From contig NZ_QWGG01000006.1 of NCBI RefSeq assembly GCF_003730195.1, positions 1 through 64,000 on the forward strand: 64,000 nt of DNA, written 5' to 3'. The DNA comes from Halosimplex salinum. GTDB lineage: Archaea; Halobacteriota; Halobacteria; Halobacteriales; Haloarculaceae. Every line of letters starts with the position of its first letter. The stretch's first letter is position 1. The notes beneath the pieces are model-generated. The model ran no database searches. It worked only from the letters and a program-made list of their open reading frames with translations, and had not been told where the DNA came from. The translations under genes and the position numbers were made by a program. Below, one piece after another: positions 8,189-21,328 of this stretch.

Positions 8189-8284
8189 ATGTGGAGCCCG
8201 GCCCCTCGCGGTACTATCACAGTCAGAAGTGCCTGGGTGCTGGAGACACCCGGGCTGGGTTCCCAAACGAATGTGAGCGAACCC

Positions 8285-8821
8285 ATGGAAAGATCAGAAC
8301 CTACGAATCAAGAAGCTGTCGACAACGGATTGATTGAAGACATATATCAATTGGATAGAATTTCGCTCGGGGAAGGGGCCGCGACGTGTCAATCGTGCGG
8401 CTCTTCTCTCCACGAAGGTGATGGGGTTGTTGTGTACGTGTTCCGGCCGGCGGGGTCGGTGCGGTACCAGCTCGGCCATGTTGTGTGTGGTGATGGTCGT
8501 CATACGCAGATTGAGGTGTTTACTTTAGGTGTGCGGGAGTTGCTTGTTGAGGGGCGTGTTGGGTGGTGTTCGGATGGGGCGACGCAGTCGTCGTGGCCGG
8601 TGTTGCTTGCGCCCGAAGTGGTTGGGGTGAGTACGGCGGCGACGAAGTCACTACGTCTGATTCCGGATGGTGGTAGCACGGGGTCGAACGGTGCCTCCGG
8701 TGGTAAGGAGCGGGAGTCCGCTAAGTCATCGGTGGAGGTGTCTGTTGGTGAGGCGCGTCGTCGAGCCGACGGGGCGGATGGTGACGTGGTTCGCGGGTTG
8801 TTGTGGGGTGAGCAGCGATGA
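8285..8821 (+). CDS. zinc-finger protein opening the RAMP operon
   Basis: A 178-aa protein. Residues about 38-80 hold CQSCG followed by a beta-rich segment and LGHVVCGDGRH, giving a likely Cys/His zinc site; the last 60 residues are low-complexity and polar. I recognise no enzyme motif. I chose ATG 8285; GTG 8273 and ATG 8189 are in frame, the latter directly after the inverted-repeat operator and 21-28 nt from its TATA-like box, but residues encoded by 8189-8272 look non-coding. Its stop overlaps the next start (ATGA, 8818-8821), so it is translationally coupled to the Cas7-like gene. It may be a regulator or a subunit of the complex; no function is known. Confidence 0.6.
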   Translation: MERSEPTNQEAVDNGLIEDIYQLDRISLGEGAATCQSCGSSLHEGDGVVVYVFRPAGSVRYQLGHVVCGDGRHTQIEVFTLGVRELLVEGRVGWCSDGATQSSWPVLLAPEVVGVSTAATKSLRLIPDGGSTGSNGASGGKERESAKSSVEVSVGEARRRADGADGDVVRGLLWGEQR

Positions 8822-9780
8822 CGTCGCCCCTCGTGGATTCGCATCTTGATGTCGAGTTGGATGTGCCGCGGTCGGTGGAGGAAATGTTGCTACCGGACGT
8901 GTACGTGGGGATGGAAATCGATCTGCTGTCCCCGGGTGATGGGATCGTCACGGATCGGCATCATGCGTCAGCGGATCGGTATGAGTCGGATGATCCGATG
9001 AATCAGATTGAAGGACAGATAAGCCCGTTCACCCTGTCAGGCTGGCTGCGGCACGGGTGTGAGGAAGTCGTCCAGATTGCAGGGGCAACGGCGTGCCACC
9101 CTGGTGAACCGAATGCGGACTACATGCGTGCGGAGACGTACGAGCGTGACTTGGAGTCCGGGTACCACGAGAAGGGAACCTGTCTGGATGAACACGATGA
9201 TGGGTGCGTCGTCTACGACTTGTTCGGCGGGTTCGGTAACCAGTCGGGGAAGTTGCTGCGCCGGCCAGTGACGTTCTCGCCGATCCGCAGGAACGTGGAT
9301 GTCTTGGACGGGGAGGCGGAAGCGCACTACCGGCAAATCTCGAATCAGGTTCGGTCGCGGAACGAGGAAGACGGTGGGCAGCCGCTCCGCCAGGCAGATC
9401 GTGATGTGCTCGGGAACGTCGAGGGGACGTGGAAGTTGACGCTTCGGGAGTTGAAGCCGGAGTTCGTCGGCCTGCTGTTGGAGGCCGTGTCGTTCCTGGA
9501 CGCGCATAGCGATGAGTTCGAGTTCCAGGTCGGCGGTGCACGGAATTTCGGCGCTGGGATTGCTGACGTGTGGGTGATCAATCCGTTGTACTCTGAGTCC
9601 GAGGTGCGGCGTGTGTTCAATCGGGCGCAGGCGACGACGTCGGCGATGGAGGAGAAGGATGAATTGTGGCGGTCGGAGTGCCGCCCGGAGTTCGTTAGGG
9701 CGTTGCAGGCGCGGGTTGCGCAGCGTGATGGTGATGTGCCCTTCCCTGGTGATGATGGGTCAGCGGGTGGTTCGGCATGA
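8818..9780 (+). CDS. diverged Cas7-like RAMP protein (HRAMP system)
   Basis: A 320-aa protein with four marks of Cas7-type RAMPs in order: a first strand YVGMEIDLLSPGDG (29-42); FTLSGWLRHG (71-80), equivalent to the SSLKGxxR helix of Csm3/Csc2-type Cas7; GCVVYDLFGGFG (129-140), equivalent to the C-x-LFG segment of type III Cas7 proteins; and the glycine-rich loop GGARNFGAG (239-247). C122, C130 and nearby H/D residues could bind metal. Cas7 proteins form the RNA-binding backbone of class 1 effector complexes. It overlaps both neighbours by 4 nt. The family is too diverged for subtype assignment; it fits the Cas7 homologue of the array-less haloarchaeal system described by Makarova and colleagues. 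Confidence 0.78.
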   Translation: MTSPLVDSHLDVELDVPRSVEEMLLPDVYVGMEIDLLSPGDGIVTDRHHASADRYESDDPMNQIEGQISPFTLSGWLRHGCEEVVQIAGATACHPGEPNADYMRAETYERDLESGYHEKGTCLDEHDDGCVVYDLFGGFGNQSGKLLRRPVTFSPIRRNVDVLDGEAEAHYRQISNQVRSRNEEDGGQPLRQADRDVLGNVEGTWKLTLRELKPEFVGLLLEAVSFLDAHSDEFEFQVGGARNFGAGIADVWVINPLYSESEVRRVFNRAQATTSAMEEKDELWRSECRPEFVRALQARVAQRDGDVPFPGDDGSAGGSA

Positions 9781-10112
9781 CTGGTGGGCGTGACGACCGG
9801 GATGCTGGTGATGATGATCCGGGGAATGTGGATCAGGACGGTGCGGAGCTGGACAAACTAGCCGAGCCAGCGACTGATCTGCGGACCGCTCAAGAACGGA
9901 CGGCATCGGAGGAGTCAATTGTTGCGTCTGGCGGTGTAGAGGCGGGTGCTGCGACTGACGGGTCATCAGCGACTGGTAATTCCGACAGTGATGGTCTCGA
10001 TGAGTTGATGGAGCCGTCGACGGGGCTCCGCACAGCCCGGGAACAAGAGACGGAGACATCGACTGGCGATGACGATGATGACGCTGGTCAGGTGGGTGAT
10101 CGGGATGTGTGA
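9777..10112 (+). CDS. small disordered acidic protein with a duplicated motif
   Basis: A 111-aa protein rich in D, E, G, S and T, probably unfolded. Two copies of one motif stand out: LDKLAEPATDLRTAQE (about 25-40) and LDELMEPSTGLRTARE (about 74-89), consensus LDxLxEPxTxLRTAxE. Such spaced peptide repeats in an otherwise disordered chain suggest binding sites for a partner, for instance repeated Cas7-like subunits. It overlaps the upstream gene by ATGA and the downstream one by 8 nt. No family recognised. Confidence 0.55.
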   Translation: MTGGRDDRDAGDDDPGNVDQDGAELDKLAEPATDLRTAQERTASEESIVASGGVEAGAATDGSSATGNSDSDGLDELMEPSTGLRTAREQETETSTGDDDDDAGQVGDRDV

Positions 10113-10926
10113 TGCGATCGCCGATTCGGACGTGGACGCTGACGCCGATGCCGTGGACCCGTTGGTGGCGGCGTATCGGCATGATGTGCATAAGTTGCGG
10201 GCGCGGGCGCATAGCCATGCAGTGGATTGGGTTGACGGTGTGCGGGTGAATGAGTCGGTGCCGGACGGGGCGGACGGGGATGCGGCGTTGTTGAGTCGGC
10301 CGCGCGGTGATCCGGAGCAGACGGTGGATGCGTACGCGTCGTGGCGGCGCGTGTCGCTGTTGACTGGGGAGGTCATTTCGAGTGAGTCGGGTGAATCGTT
10401 GGACGAGTTGCTCGTGGCCGATGACGCCGAGCAGTTGCACGCGACGTGGGTGTCGGCGACGCTGCCGGCGGGGTTCAATGAGTCGCCGTACTACCCGTAT
10501 ACGTCGGTGAAGTACCACACGCTCTTGGCGGCGGTGCTGCTGGATAATTACCGGAACGGCCACGAGTTCGGCGACCTATTCCTGGCAGTTGGGGCTGCGG
10601 ACACGGAGTCTGTAACACCGCATCGAACAGTACTCTCGACGGGTGGGGTATCGTTGGCTGTGACTGGGGAGCCGGGGGATCGGCCGGCAGCGCGGTTAGG
10701 TGATGTGCCGGCGCGGTCGTTCGCAGACACGTGGGCGCGGCTCCCAGTGCTCCCGTTTGACGTGGCCGGGTCACGTCGGTGGCGCGTGCTGGATTCGCAG
10801 TTGCGGCGGATCCGTTCGTGGTCGGTGGCGCTACAGTTTATCGAGGACTACGTCGCGGCGTTCGCACCGGCGCAGTGCGCTGGGCATGGTCGCCGTGGCC
10901 GTCGAGGTGGAGGTGAGGGTCGATGA
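10105..10926 (+). CDS. uncharacterised conserved protein of the RAMP operon
   Basis: A 273-aa protein starting at ATG 10105, inside the stop region of the preceding gene (ATGTGTGA). An upstream in-frame start at 10069 would lie deep in that gene and is rejected. The middle contains PYYPYTSVKYHTLLAAVLLDN (split here over residues 130-150) and a C-terminal helical stretch ending in an Arg/Gly-rich tail suited to nucleic acid contact. I see no catalytic motif. In the described haloarchaeal system the Cas5 and Cas7 homologues are accompanied by one uncharacterised conserved protein, and this gene occupies that role by position; it might stand in for a Cas8-like large subunit or a small subunit, but nothing in the sequence proves this. 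Confidence 0.6.
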   Translation: MCDAIADSDVDADADAVDPLVAAYRHDVHKLRARAHSHAVDWVDGVRVNESVPDGADGDAALLSRPRGDPEQTVDAYASWRRVSLLTGEVISSESGESLDELLVADDAEQLHATWVSATLPAGFNESPYYPYTSVKYHTLLAAVLLDNYRNGHEFGDLFLAVGAADTESVTPHRTVLSTGGVSLAVTGEPGDRPAARLGDVPARSFADTWARLPVLPFDVAGSRRWRVLDSQLRRIRSWSVALQFIEDYVAAFAPAQCAGHGRRGRRGGGEGR

Positions 10927-11855
10927 CGCGGATTCAACAGGTTCTCTTCGAGTTGGAGTCGTCGTACTCCGGCAATCCGTATTTCGTGTCGGGGAACGCG
11001 GCGTTCAACGCGGTTGCGTCGCGTGTGGATGATGCGACGCGTGGGGCGCTGCATGTGAGTCACGGCGTGTTTCTCCCGGGTGAGTACGGTGAGCACCCGG
11101 CAGGCGCGTCGCAGGATGGGTATGCGGGGAAGCTCGGGTTGTCGTTGCCGGACGTGGAGTCGTACGAGGACTTGTTCGTGTTTCGGGACGCGGCGCAGCG
11201 GTGGCTGCTGGATTCACGGCCGCGGGATGCGCATAACGTACACCCGTTGCAAACTCATGGTGTCCGTGTTGCGTTCGACGATTCGTGTTGGTTCGGGCGG
11301 CCGGCAGAGATGCGGGATCACCGCCGGTCAGTGTCGTGGTTCCTGCACTGCTACTTGCACGCCGGCCGTGACGGTGTCGTACCGGTCGCGGAGGATGTAC
11401 TGGACGGGATTCGTGTTGGTGGGGCGCGGAATTACGGGTTCGGGGAGGTGTCCGTGGTGGAGACACAACTCGTAGATCTCGATGCGTTGGATTACGCTGG
11501 GGTGCGAGGGGCTGACGAGTTGCAGTTGGAGCTTGTGACGCCGTTCGTGTTGGTGAGTGAGGCTCCGAACGCGGATTCGCAGTCGGTGCCGTGGTGGTGG
11601 GGCGTGCCGTCTGGCGGGTTGCGTCGCCGGGAGACACGCCTCGTGAGCGGTGACGAGTCGTACGCTGTGGAGACGGTTGACCACGGGCAAGTCGTCGAGT
11701 ACGTCGGGGATGACGCGGTTCGGACGGCGAAGAACGGTGTGACGCGGGTCGGAACACACTCGAAGTTCGGGTTCGGGGAGTTTCGGCTGCGCCCGAGTGG
11801 CGCGGACCGGGTGCCGGAGCGTGCGGCCGCCGCTTCGGACGGAGGTGGTGTGTGA
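10923..11855 (+). CDS. diverged Cas5-like RAMP protein with two glycine-rich loops
   Basis: A 310-aa protein. It has two RAMP-type glycine-rich loops: GGARNYGFGEVSV (166-178) and THSKFGFGEFRL near the C-terminus (about 277-290), each followed by a strand, so two ferredoxin-like folds are likely. That plan fits Cas5-group proteins (Cas5, Csm4, Cmr3) and also resembles Cas6. H107 and H112 lie in the middle, but no classical Cas6 active site is obvious. A good ribosome-binding site (GGAGGTGA) precedes ATG 10923, which overlaps the previous stop by ATGA. In class 1 complexes Cas5 caps the 5' handle of the guide RNA. If it were also the RNA-processing enzyme, the system could mature its own guides. 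Confidence 0.74.
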   Translation: MTRIQQVLFELESSYSGNPYFVSGNAAFNAVASRVDDATRGALHVSHGVFLPGEYGEHPAGASQDGYAGKLGLSLPDVESYEDLFVFRDAAQRWLLDSRPRDAHNVHPLQTHGVRVAFDDSCWFGRPAEMRDHRRSVSWFLHCYLHAGRDGVVPVAEDVLDGIRVGGARNYGFGEVSVVETQLVDLDALDYAGVRGADELQLELVTPFVLVSEAPNADSQSVPWWWGVPSGGLRRRETRLVSGDESYAVETVDHGQVVEYVGDDAVRTAKNGVTRVGTHSKFGFGEFRLRPSGADRVPERAAAASDGGGV

Positions 11856-12517
11856 TGGTGTTGGAGCAAGTGGCGTTCGACATCGAGACGACTGGGTTCG
11901 ACGCGGTCGATGTCGTGACGACGGTCGGGTTTGCGGTTCCGATGGGTGTTCGCGTGTTCCTGCAGACCGACGGGCGGGACACGCCGGGAGTTGAGTCGCG
12001 TGTTGACTCTGCGGTGTCGGAGACGCTGGTGAACGTGTCTACACACGCGTCTGAACGTGAGTTGCTGGTCGCAGTGTCTGAGTTCGTTGCGGAGCGGATC
12101 CGTGATGACATGCTGCTCGTCGCGTACAATGGAGAGAGGTGGAATGGCGGGTTCGACGTACCGTTCCTTCGAACGAGGTACGCGCAGCGTGATTTGGCGT
12201 GGCCGTTCGTGGACGTGCCGTACGCAGACGTGATGCCGCTCGTCACGGACCGGTTTAACACGACTGTTGATGGGGCCGAGCAGGGTGGGCTCGTGACGGC
12301 GTACGACGTGTTGTGCGGCGGGTCGTACGGTGATCTCGACCCGTTCGACGATAGTGCCGAGGCCGTGGCAGCGTTCGAGGACGGGCGGTTTGCGGAGCTC
12401 ATGTTGCATAACGTGGCGGATGTGCTGCGGACACGGGCGCTCGGCCGAGTTGCGGAGCGGTACTGTTCGAAATCCGAGTTCAAGGTAAAATCGCTGACGC
12501 CGACGAGGTCGATCTGA
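11855..12517 (+). CDS. DEDD-family 3'-5' exonuclease (RNase H-like fold)
   Basis: A 220-aa protein of the DnaQ/RNase_H_2-like group. Exo I is FDIETTG (D9, E11), Exo II is NGERWNGGFDVPFL (about 94-107) and Exo III is HNVADV with H185 and D189; the H-x3-D spacing is like the YxxxD class with His replacing Tyr. All four acidic residues are present, so it should be active on DNA or RNA ends. Start: ATG 11855 overlaps the Cas5-like stop (TGATG) with GGAGGTG just upstream; GTG 11852 is an alternative. Its coupling to the RAMP genes suggests that it supplies the nuclease the complex lacks. Confidence 0.75.
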   Translation: MVLEQVAFDIETTGFDAVDVVTTVGFAVPMGVRVFLQTDGRDTPGVESRVDSAVSETLVNVSTHASERELLVAVSEFVAERIRDDMLLVAYNGERWNGGFDVPFLRTRYAQRDLAWPFVDVPYADVMPLVTDRFNTTVDGAEQGGLVTAYDVLCGGSYGDLDPFDDSAEAVAAFEDGRFAELMLHNVADVLRTRALGRVAERYCSKSEFKVKSLTPTRSI

Positions 12518-12708: not shown

Positions 12709-13779
12709 ATGACAGAAACAGAGTCACACGATCACGACGACGCAACGAGTATGAACGAATCGAGCGGTGAACGGACGGAGCGGTTGACGCCTGAGGAGTG
12801 CCACGAGACAGTTGACCCGGAGACACGGGAAGCGGTGCTTGACGAGTACTCCCATCGCTGCCAGGTCTGCGGGCGACGCGGACCGGAGAAAGGCGGGTTA
12901 GCGACGCTGCACGTCCACCATATCGAACGCGACCCGGACGGGATGGGTGAGCATGATATGGAGAACCTGACGTTGCTGTGTCGGTCGTGCCACAGCTGGT
13001 TCCATCAACAGAGCACGCCTGACGACGCGCCCGTCGAGATCACAGAGGAAGACCAGAGCGTGTTGCTTCCGCAGGACATCGAGATCCTACGGTTCTTAGC
13101 AGATGCGGGTCCGGCGCGAACGGGTGATATTGCGTCCGGGGTGCCGACTGACTTGACGGTGTCAGCGGTTCGTGAGCGGTTGTGGGTGCTGATGGGACTC
13201 GATAACTTGGTCGAAGCCCGCGACCGGCAGATCGTCGATAAGGACGTCGAGACCGGGGAATGGGGACTCACCGAACAGATCGAGAACTCCGCTCGCGGGC
13301 ACATCCCGGACGACCCACAACTGTTGCTCCAGCGTATGGAGGACGAGAAAGTCCGACAGGCACTCGACCGCGGGTGTGATCGCAGTGACGTCATCAACGT
13401 GTTCGATGTCTCGCGGCGGACGACGTTCAACAAGCAGAAGCGAGCCTGTGCGTACGACTTCCCGTTGGCCGCGTTCAACCGCGGGGGCCGGCCGACGACC
13501 GATAGCGAGCGGTCGGAACGCAGTCCGGGCACGACCGACACAGTAGAGGACGACGGTGATGAACAGCAGCGACTTGACGCAGTCCCCGAACAGGACACAG
13601 ACTCGTTGGGCCGAACTGAAACGTGGGATGCGACTGAGACGACTCCCGAATCGGAGCCCTCGAATGAGAGCGTAGAGGGTACTGATCAAGCGGTGAGTAA
13701 GAACGGTGCAGATGACGAGGTGCGCGTGCATCTGGAGCACGCAATTGATGCGCTACAAGAGGTAGAGCAAGGGCTGTAA
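12709..13779 (+). CDS. HNH endonuclease with C-terminal helical/DNA-binding region
   Basis: A 356-aa protein. The HNH core covers residues about 47-100: CQVC (51-54), HVHHIERDP with catalytic H70/H71, N86 and CRSCHSWFH (91-99), so a zinc-stabilised beta-beta-alpha metal nuclease. Residues 105-190 look like a winged-helix region (PARTGDIASG, then VRERLWVLMGLDNLVEARDR), and 190-260 resemble a site-specific resolvase-type helix-turn-helix (GCDRSDVINVFDVSRRT). The tail is acidic and disordered. It follows the RAMP and exonuclease genes in the same direction after 191 nt; nucleases of varied families accompany the Cas5/Cas7 pair in the described haloarchaeal system, so it is the likely DNA-cutting effector. 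It could also have its own promoter. Confidence 0.78.
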   Translation: MTETESHDHDDATSMNESSGERTERLTPEECHETVDPETREAVLDEYSHRCQVCGRRGPEKGGLATLHVHHIERDPDGMGEHDMENLTLLCRSCHSWFHQQSTPDDAPVEITEEDQSVLLPQDIEILRFLADAGPARTGDIASGVPTDLTVSAVRERLWVLMGLDNLVEARDRQIVDKDVETGEWGLTEQIENSARGHIPDDPQLLLQRMEDEKVRQALDRGCDRSDVINVFDVSRRTTFNKQKRACAYDFPLAAFNRGGRPTTDSERSERSPGTTDTVEDDGDEQQRLDAVPEQDTDSLGRTETWDATETTPESEPSNESVEGTDQAVSKNGADDEVRVHLEHAIDALQEVEQGL

Positions 13780-14294: not shown

Positions 14295-14855
14295 ATGAGA
14301 CATATTACTGTAGCGTTGGAAACGGGTGGTATGGATACGGCCGAGATCCGGGAGTGGGCGAAATCATACGACGAAAGTTACGATGAGGAACTCCACGAGA
14401 TTGAACAGACGCTCCATGAAGCGCTACAAGCACAGGAGTACATTACGCAAGGACAGCTTCGTGATGTAGTCACGTGGAAATTGGATAACCAAGCGGGGCG
14501 TCGAAGCGGGAATATTGAACGAGTGAATTTGGTTCCCGATAAGTTTGTGCGTCGGGTGAGCGAGGCTGCCTTGTTGGTTGAAGACCCAGAGATTCAACTC
14601 AAGACGTTGTCCTCGATACCTGGGATTGGGTGTGCGACAGCGACAGTCGTGCTGACGTTCTACGATCCGGAGCGGTACGCTGTGGGAGATCGGTACATGG
14701 TGGATTTGTTCTTCGGTGAAGATCGGCAGATGCGGGTGACAGATTATCCAAAGCTGCTCTCGGAGTTGCGTGACCGGAATCCAGGAGGATTCGATCTCCG
14801 AACGGTGGAGAAAGCATACTATCAGAAATATCGAGAAGAGAACGGTATCGCGTAG
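14295..14855 (+). CDS. helix-hairpin-helix (HhH-GPD-like) protein
   Basis: A 186-aa protein (174 aa if ATG 14331 is used, which may be the better start since the first 12 residues look unrelated). Residues about 100-125 read LSSIPGIGCATATVVLTFYDP, a classic HhH DNA-binding motif as found in HhH-GPD DNA glycosylases, followed by YAVGDRYMVDLFFG, where a glycosylase has its catalytic Asp region. The protein is shorter than normal glycosylases and lacks an Fe-S cluster motif. Its target and activity are unknown; a base-excision or modified-DNA role would suit a defence island. Confidence 0.55.
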   Translation: MRHITVALETGGMDTAEIREWAKSYDESYDEELHEIEQTLHEALQAQEYITQGQLRDVVTWKLDNQAGRRSGNIERVNLVPDKFVRRVSEAALLVEDPEIQLKTLSSIPGIGCATATVVLTFYDPERYAVGDRYMVDLFFGEDRQMRVTDYPKLLSELRDRNPGGFDLRTVEKAYYQKYREENGIA

Positions 14856-14903: not shown

Positions 14904-15767
14904 TTACTCAAGGGATGAACCTGGAGATGTTAGAGTTGCTTTGTCACGTGGTTTCGTCGCCCCTGGATCGTATCCTGCGTCTTGAAGGTTCGAAAGGACA
15001 TCGTGGATGGTGTCGAGTGTGTCGTACAGGTTTTCTGTGGTGCGGCCGCTGCTGAGGAACTCGTTGCTGTCCGTGTTCTCGACGAGGAGGTTGGCGTGGG
15101 CGACGTCGTTACGAAGGTCAGTGACTTCGTGGAGGCGGGAGTCTGCACCGCCTTTCGTAGAGAAGTCGCAGGTTTGCCAGCAGGCTTCGACGCTGGTGAC
15201 GATGGTTTCGAGCGTGGAGAATTGTGCGTAGTGGATCTCGTCTAACGCGACGTTGGCGGCTTGTGCGTCTTCGTACCGGTCTTCGATGTCGTCGAGTTCG
15301 TCTGCGGTGACGGGCGTGGTTTTCCAGTCTGGTTTCGTGTCGAGGATGAGCTCGCGGAGGTGTTCTTCGAGGTAGGTGATGCGGTCGAAGAGGTAGATGC
15401 GTACTGGGGCGGTGTTGAGATCGGCGCGGGTGAGGATGCCGGTGATGTTGTTGTGGCCGCCGAGAAAGTAGACGGGTTGCTCGATAAGTGCGGACAGGAC
15501 GTCTGTGAATGAGGAGTCGCCGCTGATCATGTAGTCGATGGTCAGCGGGGTGAGGTGGTCGTCGAGGGTGTCGCCGTCGTCGTCGGTTGTGACGTCGTCT
15601 TTGTGGATGAATCCGATTGGGCCGTCGTCAGTGTAGACGGGGGCGGCGTCGTAGCCGTTCCCGGCGAGCCACGCGGCGGCGTCGCTTGGTGGCGTGTCGT
15701 GTTCAAGATGTTCGACAGAGTGCGTGGCGAGTTCGGCCGCGGTGCAGTTGTAGAGGTCGCGGGGCAT
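14904..15767 (-). CDS. CBS-domain pair fused to a HEPN-motif domain
   Basis: A 287-aa protein. Residues 28-120 look like two CBS repeats: AAWLAGNGYDAAPVYTDDGP-IGFIHKDDV, then VLSALIEQPVYFLGGHNNITGILTRADL in two pieces. CBS pairs bind adenosyl nucleotides. Residues 125-265 are helical and contain DLRNDVAHAN with R219 and H224 in Rx4H spacing, the HEPN ribonuclease signature. The simplest reading is a nucleotide-gated RNase. ATG 15767 is preferred because the CBS fold starts soon after it; ATG 15839 is in frame upstream. It is convergent with the HhH gene and divergent from the gene at 15885, sharing an AT-rich spacer. Activity and ligand are inferred. Confidence 0.62.
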   Translation of the reverse strand: MPRDLYNCTAAELATHSVEHLEHDTPPSDAAAWLAGNGYDAAPVYTDDGPIGFIHKDDVTTDDDGDTLDDHLTPLTIDYMISGDSSFTDVLSALIEQPVYFLGGHNNITGILTRADLNTAPVRIYLFDRITYLEEHLRELILDTKPDWKTTPVTADELDDIEDRYEDAQAANVALDEIHYAQFSTLETIVTSVEACWQTCDFSTKGGADSRLHEVTDLRNDVAHANLLVENTDSNEFLSSGRTTENLYDTLDTIHDVLSNLQDAGYDPGATKPRDKATLTSPGSSLE

Positions 15768-15884
15768 ACCGGCTGGTGGGGACGCAGGGATAGTCAAAAT
15801 GAGGGAACATGCGGTGTAGTCGCGGATCGAGGCATCCATCCACCACAAAGTTAATGCCTATAGAACATATTTTTCAATTTGATT

Positions 15885-16241
15885 ATGCTCAAAGGGCATT
15901 TCAAGTCGGCGGGGGCGAGTATCGAGTACGGTGCTGCTCGCTGTCTCTTCCCCGTCGATGAGCTGGATGCGACGGTGTTCCAGTACCGAGATGCCCAAGT
16001 CGCGCTTGACGACGTCGATGGATCGAACGTCATCGTCGTCGCCCCGACGAGCCTTGCAACCAGTTACTTCCTCACCCAGCACGCGCTCACCGCAATCCGC
16101 GTCGACAGTCTCTCCACCGCAGTCCGGACACAGATCGCCGCTGCGCTCGACGCTCGCATCGACACGTTCGAGCTCATTCAAATCGGCAAGTGGAACAGTA
16201 CCAGCGCGAATCACTCGCTCGCCGAATTCACGGAAGCCTGA
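15885..16241 (+). CDS. hypothetical protein
   Basis: A 118-aa protein starting at ATG 15885. A TATA-like stretch TATAGAACATAT at 15859-15870 lies at the right distance for a leaderless transcript. The sequence suggests alternating strands and helices (SNVIVVAPTSLATSYFL, RTQIAAALDARIDTFELIQIG) with no recognisable motif. It diverges from the CBS-HEPN gene and is followed after 54 nt by another small gene in the same direction. Confidence 0.5.
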   Translation: MLKGHFKSAGASIEYGAARCLFPVDELDATVFQYRDAQVALDDVDGSNVIVVAPTSLATSYFLTQHALTAIRVDSLSTAVRTQIAAALDARIDTFELIQIGKWNSTSANHSLAEFTEA

Positions 16242-16295: not shown

Positions 16296-16565
16296 ATGAC
16301 CGAGACACTCTCCGATGAGTACCCGGAGGCCGCCCCGTACATCCAGCAAGCCATCGATGAGCACGGTGAAGACTGGGTGCTTGAACACTACTACGAGCAA
16401 CTCTATCTGCTGGGACGGGTGATGGAGATGCCTGAAAAGGACGAGCTCCCTTTCTACGATCCGGACGAGCACGACACGATGACGGAGGAAGAACGAGTGG
16501 AGATGTACCAAGCGTGGGCTGAATACCGGGAGAATCTTCGTACCGGAACGAAACCTGACGAGTAA
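16296..16565 (+). CDS. small acidic hypothetical protein
   Basis: An 89-aa, mostly helical and very acidic protein (QQAIDEHGEDWVLEHYYEQL, then EERVEMYQAWAEYREN). No family recognised. It lies 43 nt upstream of the ADP-ribosylglycohydrolase and in the same direction, so the two are probably co-expressed. Confidence 0.5.
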   Translation: MTETLSDEYPEAAPYIQQAIDEHGEDWVLEHYYEQLYLLGRVMEMPEKDELPFYDPDEHDTMTEEERVEMYQAWAEYRENLRTGTKPDE

Positions 16566-16608: not shown

Positions 16609-17517
16609 ATGGATTTGGATCGGGCGCGTGGGGTGCTACTTGGGCTAGCGTGCGGGGACGCGCTTGGCCGGCCAGTCGAGTTTGCGTCTACCTCAGCAAT
16701 CAGTGCTGAACACGGACGGCTCGACGAGATGATCGGGCACGGTACGTGGAACCAGCCCGCCGGGACGATCACCGACGACACCGAGCAAGCGCTGTGTATC
16801 GCACGAAGTCTTGTCGAACACCAAACCTTCGATCCGGCGGATGTCGCTGACCGGTTCGTTGCGTGGTACGAGAGTGGCCCCTTCGACATTGGAGGGATGA
16901 CGAGGCGGGCGCTCACCCGGCTCAAACGCGGCGACACGTGGGATGAGGCGGGCCAGCAGGTCTGGGAGCAAAGTCAGGAAGGGCAGAACGCGGGCAACGG
17001 GAGTGTGATGCGGTGTCCGCCGCTCGCCATTCCGTACGCGAGTGACTGGGATCGGCTTGTCGAGGTGAGTCGGCAGTCCTCGCAGATCACGCACGCTGAC
17101 CCGCGATGTACTGATGGCTGTGCGATTCTGAATCTCACAGTGGCTGGTCTGCTCGAAGACGTGGACACGCCGTTGCAGGACGCGCTTGAGTACGTCGGTG
17201 CGGACGCGCCTGATGAGCTCGTGATGGCACTCCGACAGCTCGCGCGTGGTGACTCACCCAGCAAGCTGGAGACGTCGGGATACGCCGTGCATTCGTTGCA
17301 GACGGCACTTCACGACGGGTTATTCGCGGACAGTGCCGAGGACGCGATTGTGACGGCGGTGAATCGTGGCGGTGATACGGATACGATTGGGGCGATTGCA
17401 GGTGCAGTCGCTGGGGCGCGGTTCGGGGCGTCACAGCTTCCGGATCGATGGCTGAGTGCTATCGACGAGACCGACGAACTCGAAACGCTGGCTGAGCGAC
17501 TCGTGGAGGTGGCGTGA
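16609..17517 (+). CDS. ADP-ribosylglycohydrolase family protein (DraG/ARH-like)
   Basis: A 302-aa protein of normal family length. Metal-site motifs are in place: GDALG (16-20), GTITDDTEQ (52-60, T55-D56-D57), NGSVMR near 128 and NRGGDTDTIGAIAGA near 252-266. These enzymes remove ADP-ribose from arginine, or hydrolyse related ADP-ribose compounds, using a two-metal centre. In a defence island it may reverse a toxin-type modification or act on a signalling molecule. Its stop overlaps the next start (TGATG), so it is coupled to the HAD-HEAT protein. Confidence 0.85.
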   Translation: MDLDRARGVLLGLACGDALGRPVEFASTSAISAEHGRLDEMIGHGTWNQPAGTITDDTEQALCIARSLVEHQTFDPADVADRFVAWYESGPFDIGGMTRRALTRLKRGDTWDEAGQQVWEQSQEGQNAGNGSVMRCPPLAIPYASDWDRLVEVSRQSSQITHADPRCTDGCAILNLTVAGLLEDVDTPLQDALEYVGADAPDELVMALRQLARGDSPSKLETSGYAVHSLQTALHDGLFADSAEDAIVTAVNRGGDTDTIGAIAGAVAGARFGASQLPDRWLSAIDETDELETLAERLVEVA

Positions 17518-19820: not shown

Positions 19821-20858
19821 TCAATAGGTTGCGTCAAGAATAGCGAGATCCCGTTCTAATTGAGGTTCGACTTTGGGGCTCCGACAGTCGATGTCGAGTT
19901 GCTCGTGTTGCCAGTGTCGACCGTCCTTCGCATTCCAAACCCCGTAGACGGTGACTTTCGGGAGCCGAATGACACCAAAGAGGATTGCAAGGTAGTACAG
20001 TAATTCAGCTGCCTGCGTCCATGTTCCCGTGGATTTCCGAGGGATGTCTATCGGGTAATCGATGTGCTGTGCTGGGACGCCAGCGTTGATGCTTCTGTCG
20101 ACGAACCCGTGATCGTTGCTGAGTAACACCGCTTGCTTTCGACTGTTCTGGTTGAATTCTTGATAGGCAGCGACGATTGCTTCGTCACCGGTGTCGCACT
20201 CTATGACATCGACGGTTCGGTTGGTTCTCAAGCGACGGTACTCGTAGAGGCCGAGGAACCCTTCCCGGTTGGATCCGGCAGGCTGGTTGTCGAGACGTGT
20301 AAACACCTCGCCGAAGGCTTCGGTCAGCTCGTGTGTATTGTACTGCTTGTAATGCCAGTCCAACTCTTCTTTGACGCCAGTTGCGAGTGCGTACCCGTTG
20401 GTTGGTCGTCGATCCCGGTCGTCCGTGGCTCCTGTTTCACTGTCGATGCCCAGAATTTCGGGGAGTCTCCAGGCTATGATGTTGGCATCTAACCCGAGTA
20501 CGACAGGGTCGTGTCCGGCTTCGAGATCGGCATAGCCGTGTCGTTGGATGAATTCGCCGACATCGTCGTGGTTGGCGAGTTGAACATGGCCGCTAGCGAC
20601 TGCTATGCGGGTGTACGTCTCAGCATCCGGCAAGTCTTCGTAGGCGGGCTGACCGTGCTTTGCAGGGATCGTTTCACGATTGTCCTGGTACGTCATCGTG
20701 CCCTGCGTGAACTGGACCGTGGCTTGTCCATCGTCCTCCAGTTCAATTCGGACGAGTTCGCCGATGTCCTCGCAGGGATGCGTGACAGGGATCGATTTGA
20801 CGTCCTGATCGTACAAGGCGTTCAGCAGGACCATCAGGCGACGACGCTCGATCTGCAT
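19821..20858 (-). CDS. PIN-domain ribonuclease paired with a CARF protein
   Basis: A 345-aa protein. Residues about 118-275 form a PIN-like nuclease: LGLDANII (D124, N126), GVKEEL (E164/E165), CDTGDEAIVAA (D225/E226) and LLSNDHGF (D249), the ordered acidic residues of VapC-type RNases. The first 110 residues are a separate beta-rich domain and the last 70 another, both unassigned. ATG 20858 overlaps the stop of the CARF gene (TAATG), with GGAGGTG 5 nt before. Close coupling to a nucleotide-sensing CARF domain suggests an RNase switched on by a cyclic oligonucleotide or related ligand. The catalytic residues are seen; the activation model is inferred. Confidence 0.72.
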   Translation of the reverse strand: MQIERRRLMVLLNALYDQDVKSIPVTHPCEDIGELVRIELEDDGQATVQFTQGTMTYQDNRETIPAKHGQPAYEDLPDAETYTRIAVASGHVQLANHDDVGEFIQRHGYADLEAGHDPVVLGLDANIIAWRLPEILGIDSETGATDDRDRRPTNGYALATGVKEELDWHYKQYNTHELTEAFGEVFTRLDNQPAGSNREGFLGLYEYRRLRTNRTVDVIECDTGDEAIVAAYQEFNQNSRKQAVLLSNDHGFVDRSINAGVPAQHIDYPIDIPRKSTGTWTQAAELLYYLAILFGVIRLPKVTVYGVWNAKDGRHWQHEQLDIDCRSPKVEPQLERDLAILDATY

Positions 20859-21328
20859 TACAGCACCTCCTTAAAGTCGATCAAGTCGGTCGCGGTTCGC
20901 GGGATTTCAACGTAGAATTGCCCGTAATATCCTCCTGCTTTCCGGTGGAAATAGAAGACGTGGTCGGCGTCAAATTTGAACCCGGCCTGGAACGCGATGG
21001 CAGACATGAATTTTCGTCCAGGAGTGACGTCGACAGCAACCGTATCGCCATTCTCCCGAGCTGTTTCGATAGTAGACCGGTAGAACTCGATGATACCACG
21101 GAAGTCTGTTTCGTGATCTAAATTGTGCACAGAGACGTCGGCGTCTCCACCGTACGCCTCTATGATGACTTCGAACCGGTCGGTGGCGTCTGAGACAGGA
21201 TTAGCAACTCCTGGATTCGAAAGCACCCATAGTTCCTCCGGGACAAATCCACGGTCGCAGGCGGCCATCAGTGGATTCAAAATTCCCGGCATGGTGGGAG
21301 TGCCATTGGTCACCCAGATACGAGCCAT
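20858..21328 (-). CDS. stand-alone CARF-domain protein
   Basis: A 156-aa Rossmann-like protein consisting of one CARF domain. The first strand and loop are RIWVTNGTPTMPG (3-15), like the N-terminal ligand loop of Csx1/Csm6/Can-type sensors, and the diagnostic motif VDVTPGRKFMSA lies at 99-110, matching the usual D-x-T-x-G-x-K-x-M pattern. CARF domains bind cyclic oligoadenylates produced by type III CRISPR Cas10. No effector domain is fused; the downstream overlapping PIN gene fills that role. No Cas10 is in the window, so the signal source is unknown. Confidence 0.75.
   Translation of the reverse strand: MARIWVTNGTPTMPGILNPLMAACDRGFVPEELWVLSNPGVANPVSDATDRFEVIIEAYGGDADVSVHNLDHETDFRGIIEFYRSTIETARENGDTVAVDVTPGRKFMSAIAFQAGFKFDADHVFYFHRKAGGYYGQFYVEIPRTATDLIDFKEVL

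Follow-up and report, generated by a model that had tools for sequence, protein, structure and literature searches.

A haloarchaeal CBS-HEPN protein remotely related to DS-11 and its divergently transcribed 118-residue partner

In the complete near-family copies sampled among haloarchaea, a gene encoding a CBS-HEPN protein was always found together with a divergent gene for a protein of 118 residues. This setting is what is new here. The two genes probably form an antiviral module of the abortive-infection type, in which the activity of a CBS-HEPN ribonuclease would be set by an adenine nucleotide and the 118-residue product would act as its dedicated control protein. The pair was analysed in a stretch of 64,000 nucleotides (the window) from a haloarchaeon whose genome comprises 28 contigs and 5.07 Mb, and was compared across 293 haloarchaeal genomes of one order in which the genes of relatives were called by a simple composition rule. 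Feature coordinates are collected in Table 1.

Table 1. Features of the module and its neighbourhood in the window.
Feature	Position	Strand	Basis
CBS-HEPN protein, 287 aa	14904..15767	-	ORF, Pfam, conservation, dN/dS
CBS pair, residues 1-118	15414..15767	-	CBS1: Pfam; CBS2: model and conserved GILTRADLN
Codon of Tyr39, the aligned counterpart of Tyr157 in DS-11 and a proposed contact to adenine	15651..15653	-	alignments
T113-R-A-D116, T/S-x-x-D nucleotide-binding motif of CBS2	15420..15431	-	conservation
HEPN domain, residues 119-266	14970..15413	-	model, Pfam, PADLOC, hhalign of the HEPN part
R219-N-D-V-A-H224, predicted catalytic R-x4-H motif	15096..15113	-	sequence, conservation
Divergent intergenic region, 117 nt, with conserved CCACCACAA element and, ahead of the start of the partner, a TATA-like CATATATTT block	15768..15884	.	
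Partner gene (118 aa, MLKGHFKSAG...), outside known families and folds	15885..16241	+	neighbourhood, profiles, model
89-aa acidic protein, frequent partner neighbour, dispensable to the module	16296..16565	+	
ADP-ribosylglycohydrolase, often adjoining, not required by the module	16609..17517	+	
PIN-domain protein paired with CARF, same island	19821..20858	-	
CARF protein (CARF_m1), same island	20858..21328	-	

Domain architecture of the CBS-HEPN protein

The reading frame was found where a first-pass annotation had placed it. Its ATG at 15767 occupies a position common to most homologues, and a 314-residue version with a TTG start was rejected because the homologues begin at that ATG. Relative to the window copy dN/dS was approximately 0.13-0.28, with a tendency towards lower values in the HEPN half, and the CBS-HEPN gene is therefore a real gene under purifying selection. 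The annotation had also described CBS repeats preceding a helical domain with R219-x4-H224, an order that was recovered with the residue numbering intact.

CBS1 (residues 11-59) matched Pfam PF00571 at E 1.3e-6. CBS2 fell under the Pfam cut-off and was recognized in the AlphaFold model as strands 99-104 and 107-113 followed by helix 114-118, a block with pLDDT of roughly 83-90. Using Foldseek, the model of the window protein was matched to many CBS-pair structures over about 120 residues. The T/S-x-x-D motif is the nucleotide-binding motif of CBS domains, and adenine nucleotides are common ligands of CBS pairs. Both repeats are present and the motif is retained in CBS2 within a nearly invariant GILTRADLN, T113 and D116 each being found in 34 of 35 homologues; in the same alignment the canonical motif of CBS1 is degenerate, with H55 instead, which counts against the module. 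Residue 39 is aromatic in every homologue (Tyr in 31, Phe in 4).

The helical domain carries R219 and H224 with a polar residue, N220, directly after the arginine, the arrangement of RNase-active HEPN domains (R-x4-6-H). By our own estimate about 0.4 R-x4-H motifs are expected by chance in 287 residues. As one such motif easily arises by chance, the evidence lies in its conservation across the 35 homologues (R219 35/35, H224 34/35, N220 32/35), the sole exception at H224 being a truncated gene; a chance motif is ruled out on this ground. E134 and W148 (35/35 each) and R138 (34/35) are conserved as well. A database relative from Halobellus rufus (L091 7983-8804) encodes an H224Y variant beside an intact partner, possibly a natural catalytic mutant.

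Pfam matches among 18 family members were all weak, and nearly all fell in one superfamily: HEPN_RiboL-PSP in 14 members, HEPN_Swt1 in 7 and Abi_2 in 6. The best of the HEPN_RiboL-PSP matches reached E 5.9e-4, and the member shown falls under Pfam's own cut-off. PADLOC models of the Csx1/Csm6 HEPN domain also matched family members, and PADLOC PDC-M34B gave a weak match to the HEPN region in 11 of the 18 (best E 3.6e-6); PDC-M34B differs in that no CBS match was reported for it. In the AlphaFold model the domain consists of helices 120-144, 155-170, 180-191, 208-223 and 244-263, mostly at pLDDT below 70, which likewise counts against the module. The Foldseek search with the full model was uninformative on the HEPN part because CBS structures filled the result list. 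When PDB sequences were searched, a HEPN-only profile found no HEPN chain, and the CBS-HEPN protein as a single query returned noise only.

Relation to DS-11 and other ligand-gated ribonucleases

Fusions of CBS and HEPN domains were predicted in 2013 to be ligand-controlled switches of RNA stability (Anantharaman et al., PMC3710099). The architecture is the same as that of the window protein, as is the proposed logic by which nucleotide sensing controls RNA cleavage; the examples are bacterial, some with an HD domain, and the passage on them includes neither a haloarchaeal family nor a partner gene. DS-11 is a one-protein CBS-HEPN system that protects E. coli from phage, and defence was lost both in Y157A, a mutant of the CBS adenine contact, and in HEPN catalytic mutants (DefensePredictor, PMC13092281). 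The idea of a ligand-gated CBS-HEPN ribonuclease thus goes back to the 2013 prediction, with a test following in 2026; it is not new, and it is well supported.

The NCBIfam model NF053863 (DS11_antiphage, CBS domain-containing anti-phage protein; source PMC13092281) has a curated cut-off of 260 bits. The window protein scored 18.1 bits, far under that cut-off, and this match is not evidence by itself because ordinary CBS pairs across the phylum score up to 56 bits. An E. coli member found via a plasmid collection (L139 2093-3187) scored 404.9 bits, and 127 of 5426 E. coli genomes carry it at ≥99% identity. Comparing the DS-11 family to the window family, hhalign gave a probability of 97.3% (E 2e-11) with residues 16-226 aligned collinearly across the CBS pair and the HEPN domain, and the HEPN part alone gave 85% (E 5.8e-6). 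Judged from these profiles, the window family and DS-11 are remotely related and collinear.

Tyr39 is paired with residue 157 of the E. coli protein, a tyrosine, by MAFFT and hhalign alike. This match to the essential adenine contact assumes that the numbering of PMC13092281 is that of the 365-residue E. coli protein, an assumption supported by the tyrosine sitting exactly at 157. The two families further share domain order, an R-N-D-V-x-H motif and an E-x-H-[LI]-R helix that precedes the HEPN core. They differ in that DS-11 is only ~21% identical to the window protein and bears an N-terminal extension of ~110 residues that the window protein lacks; the window family, unlike DS-11, is archaeal and has a second gene as pair. 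Both the score of 18 against 260 bits and the missing extension are counted against the module.

The first-pass annotation had proposed a ligand-gated RNase resembling Csm6/Csx1 with CBS as sensor. A gated ribonuclease of this kind is still the best reading of the sequence and gains backing from the collinear remote homology to DS-11; that CBS-HEPN fusions had already been described, and that a divergent partner gene is present, had been missed. Csm6/Csx1 likewise join a ligand sensor to an R-x4-6-H HEPN domain, which makes them an analogy for how the protein may work. Their sensor is however a Rossmann-like CARF domain for cyclic oligoadenylates and they are bound to type III CRISPR. Membership in that group was rejected, as the sensor of the window protein is CBS by both Pfam and fold and no CARF domain is present.

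Pairing with the divergent 118-residue gene

The partner gene was found on the same contig in all 28 complete near-family CBS-HEPN copies among the 293 genomes, so that no effector occurred without it, as the generic criterion for toxin-antitoxin pairs demands. In 25 of these the two genes are adjacent and divergent, usually with ~80-130 nt between the starts, and three pairs are split by insertions; in Natronomonas gomsonensis the partner lies ~12.6 kb from the CBS-HEPN gene. Over 25 loci the protein distances of the two families were correlated at r = 0.95, a value that was reached in none of 2000 permutations, and within the near subset at r = 0.85.

An alternative explanation is that CBS-HEPN acts alone as a DS-11-like effector and that the 118-residue gene, independent of it, belongs to the conserved flanks of a hot spot for integration, which would be bounded on one side by the RAMP/HNH cassette and on the other by the 118-aa, 89-aa and ADP-ribosylglycohydrolase genes. 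DS-11 of E. coli is itself a one-protein system (PMC13092281), and most of the DS-11-like haloarchaeal proteins, which are present in 19 of the 293 genomes, have no partner. The partner was moreover found without a complete CBS-HEPN gene at roughly 20 loci. Six of them retain CBS-HEPN remnants and about 14 show no trace of the window CBS-HEPN family and adjoin other cargo, from which it follows that the partner either has associations beyond CBS-HEPN or flanks a hot spot. In genome G276 the same slot holds a DS-11-like CBS-HEPN gene. Against these observations stand the pairing and the distance correlation given above, and at least ten adjacent pairs that lack every other island neighbour gene and therefore show the pairing to be more than shared synteny. 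The pairing also persists down to ~35% partner identity. We regard a lone effector beside an unrelated flank as rather unlikely. The module nevertheless has counted against it the ~14 partner loci free of CBS-HEPN and the distant CBS-HEPN clades (L067, L068, L083-L085 and the methyltransferase fusions), beside which no linked partner was found. These two are also the main arguments for the partner being partly a hot-spot gene.

A DS-11-like CBS-HEPN gene (L106 8261-9028, reverse strand; NF053863 E 2.4e-32) was seen to adjoin a 118-aa partner of the same family in the same island slot. The co-occurrence of a DS-11-like protein and the partner in G276 is not taken as a functional link because it concerns one locus only.

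No credible match to the partner protein was found in Pfam or PADLOC. Its AlphaFold model is a mixed alpha/beta structure with pLDDT 80 for which a PDB fold search returned no match, making the protein a candidate for a new fold. A HEPN-MNT toxin-antitoxin pair, in which a HEPN effector is likewise always adjoined by a small gene, was ruled out: the window partner has no match to a nucleotidyltransferase family, nor a credible one to any Pfam, PADLOC or PDB fold entry, and is divergently transcribed. Antitoxin genes are not usually oriented divergently, and this is counted against the module. The pairing, the co-inheritance and the survival of the partner after effector loss fit the role of an inhibitor or regulator.

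Distribution across haloarchaea

The CBS-HEPN family is distributed patchily over many haloarchaeal families, on chromosomes as well as large replicons, and copies 92-93% identical are found across family borders. This combination suggests horizontal transfer. Broken copies were found at L066, L078, L111, L112, L120, L121 and L123. A profile scan started from one diverse alignment recovered only 11 haloarchaeal loci, its patterns lying in weakly conserved stretches. Three scans of viral contigs found no relative of CBS-HEPN or of the partner, which is counted against the module.

This distribution bears on the alternative that the protein is a stress-response or growth-control ribonuclease serving housekeeping energy sensing, for example of the AMP/ATP ratio, with the partner as a transcription regulator and no antiviral role. 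Sensing of adenine nucleotides is common in CBS pairs, and the promoter region shared by the two genes holds a conserved element. In the part of PMC3710099 that deals with them, CBS-HEPN proteins were first proposed as general stimulus-controlled switches of RNA stability. Patchy occurrence, horizontal spread, decayed copies and defence-island neighbours are nonetheless untypical of housekeeping genes, and a housekeeping role is considered improbable.

A related clade of ~480-500 residues (L069, L070, L071, L072, L073 and L075) combines an N-terminal methyltransferase-like domain with a CBS pair and an R-x4-H HEPN domain. One member scores just above the Pfam cut-off for Eco57I, and at four of the six loci (L069-L071 and L073) a gene of ~1085-1146 aa adjoins. 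The methyltransferase-CBS-HEPN combination looks like an undescribed architecture.

Island neighbours

The slot occupied by the CBS-HEPN gene is flanked on one side by an HNH gene and a RAMP-like/DnaQ-like cassette and on the other by the block of 118-aa, 89-aa and ADP-ribosylglycohydrolase genes. In the window the cassette (8189-12517, forward strand) is a conserved haloarchaeal one, encoding a DnaQ-like exonuclease and RAMP-like proteins that match Cmr3 weakly, and the HNH protein follows at 12709-13779. DNA-glycosylase-like proteins of the helix-hairpin-helix type, identified only by inspection and a weak match to HHH, adjoin several CBS-HEPN variants (window 14295-14855, forward strand; L069 7928-8572; L073 9441-10085). 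In L104 (5722-10752) and L105 (8901-13931) the place of CBS-HEPN directly upstream of the partner is taken by a protein of 1676 aa that bears a sacsin-like ATPase domain. At L061 (9555-11053) CARF and PIN genes directly follow the CBS-HEPN gene on the same strand in an operon-like arrangement.

In the window a CARF-PIN pair lies 4 kb away. Of 37 CARF-PIN loci, 7 (G000, G003, G215, G287, G273, G292 and G088) have CBS-HEPN or the partner within 25 kb, where uniform placement would by our own estimate give about 0.1; defence genes generally cluster. The suggestion in the first-pass annotation that several nucleotide-sensing effectors share one island accordingly stands as co-location, and a shared pathway was left unsupported.

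The RAMP cassette was present at 11 of the 41 CBS-HEPN loci examined and in 83 of the 293 genomes, and a CARF-PIN pair lies directly downstream of CBS-HEPN in G003, six further genomes having one close to the module. CBS-HEPN might on these grounds be an ancillary effector of either cassette, activated by a signal resembling cyclic oligoadenylate. Most CBS-HEPN loci however lack both cassettes and most RAMP cassettes lack CBS-HEPN, the sensor is CBS and not CARF, and a search with TIGR02577, which covers Cas10 of the Cmr2 type, found none in the genome. Dependence on either cassette is thus very improbable.

Proposed mechanism and significance

The module is envisaged to work as follows. The effector is predicted to be a homodimeric HEPN ribonuclease. 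Its activity would be governed by a nucleotide containing adenine, which the CBS pair would bind via Tyr39 and the T-x-x-D of CBS2. A change in this ligand during infection would switch the enzyme on, and the active enzyme would cut host and/or viral RNA such that growth and the spread of virus are stopped. The 118-residue protein would be a dedicated control protein, most likely an antitoxin-like inhibitor and otherwise a sensor or regulator. An antiviral role in archaea is suggested by the defence-island setting, and the occupation of the same slot elsewhere by defence-type cargo, a sacsin-like ATPase gene, is counted in its favour.

It was only with DS-11, in 2026, that CBS domains came to be counted among immune sensors. 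Tentatively, and with slightly less than even confidence, we propose that the haloarchaeal pair is an archaeal antiviral system of two genes. Its CBS-HEPN ribonuclease, gated by an adenine nucleotide, would be either held back or set off by a small protein whose fold has no match in the PDB, a layer of control missing from bacterial DS-11. With a partner of its own, a divergent archaeal branch would add a second system, independent of the first, for identifying the CBS-HEPN signal. It would also mean that the principle crosses the divide between bacteria and archaea, with Haloferax volcanii as a tractable test bed.
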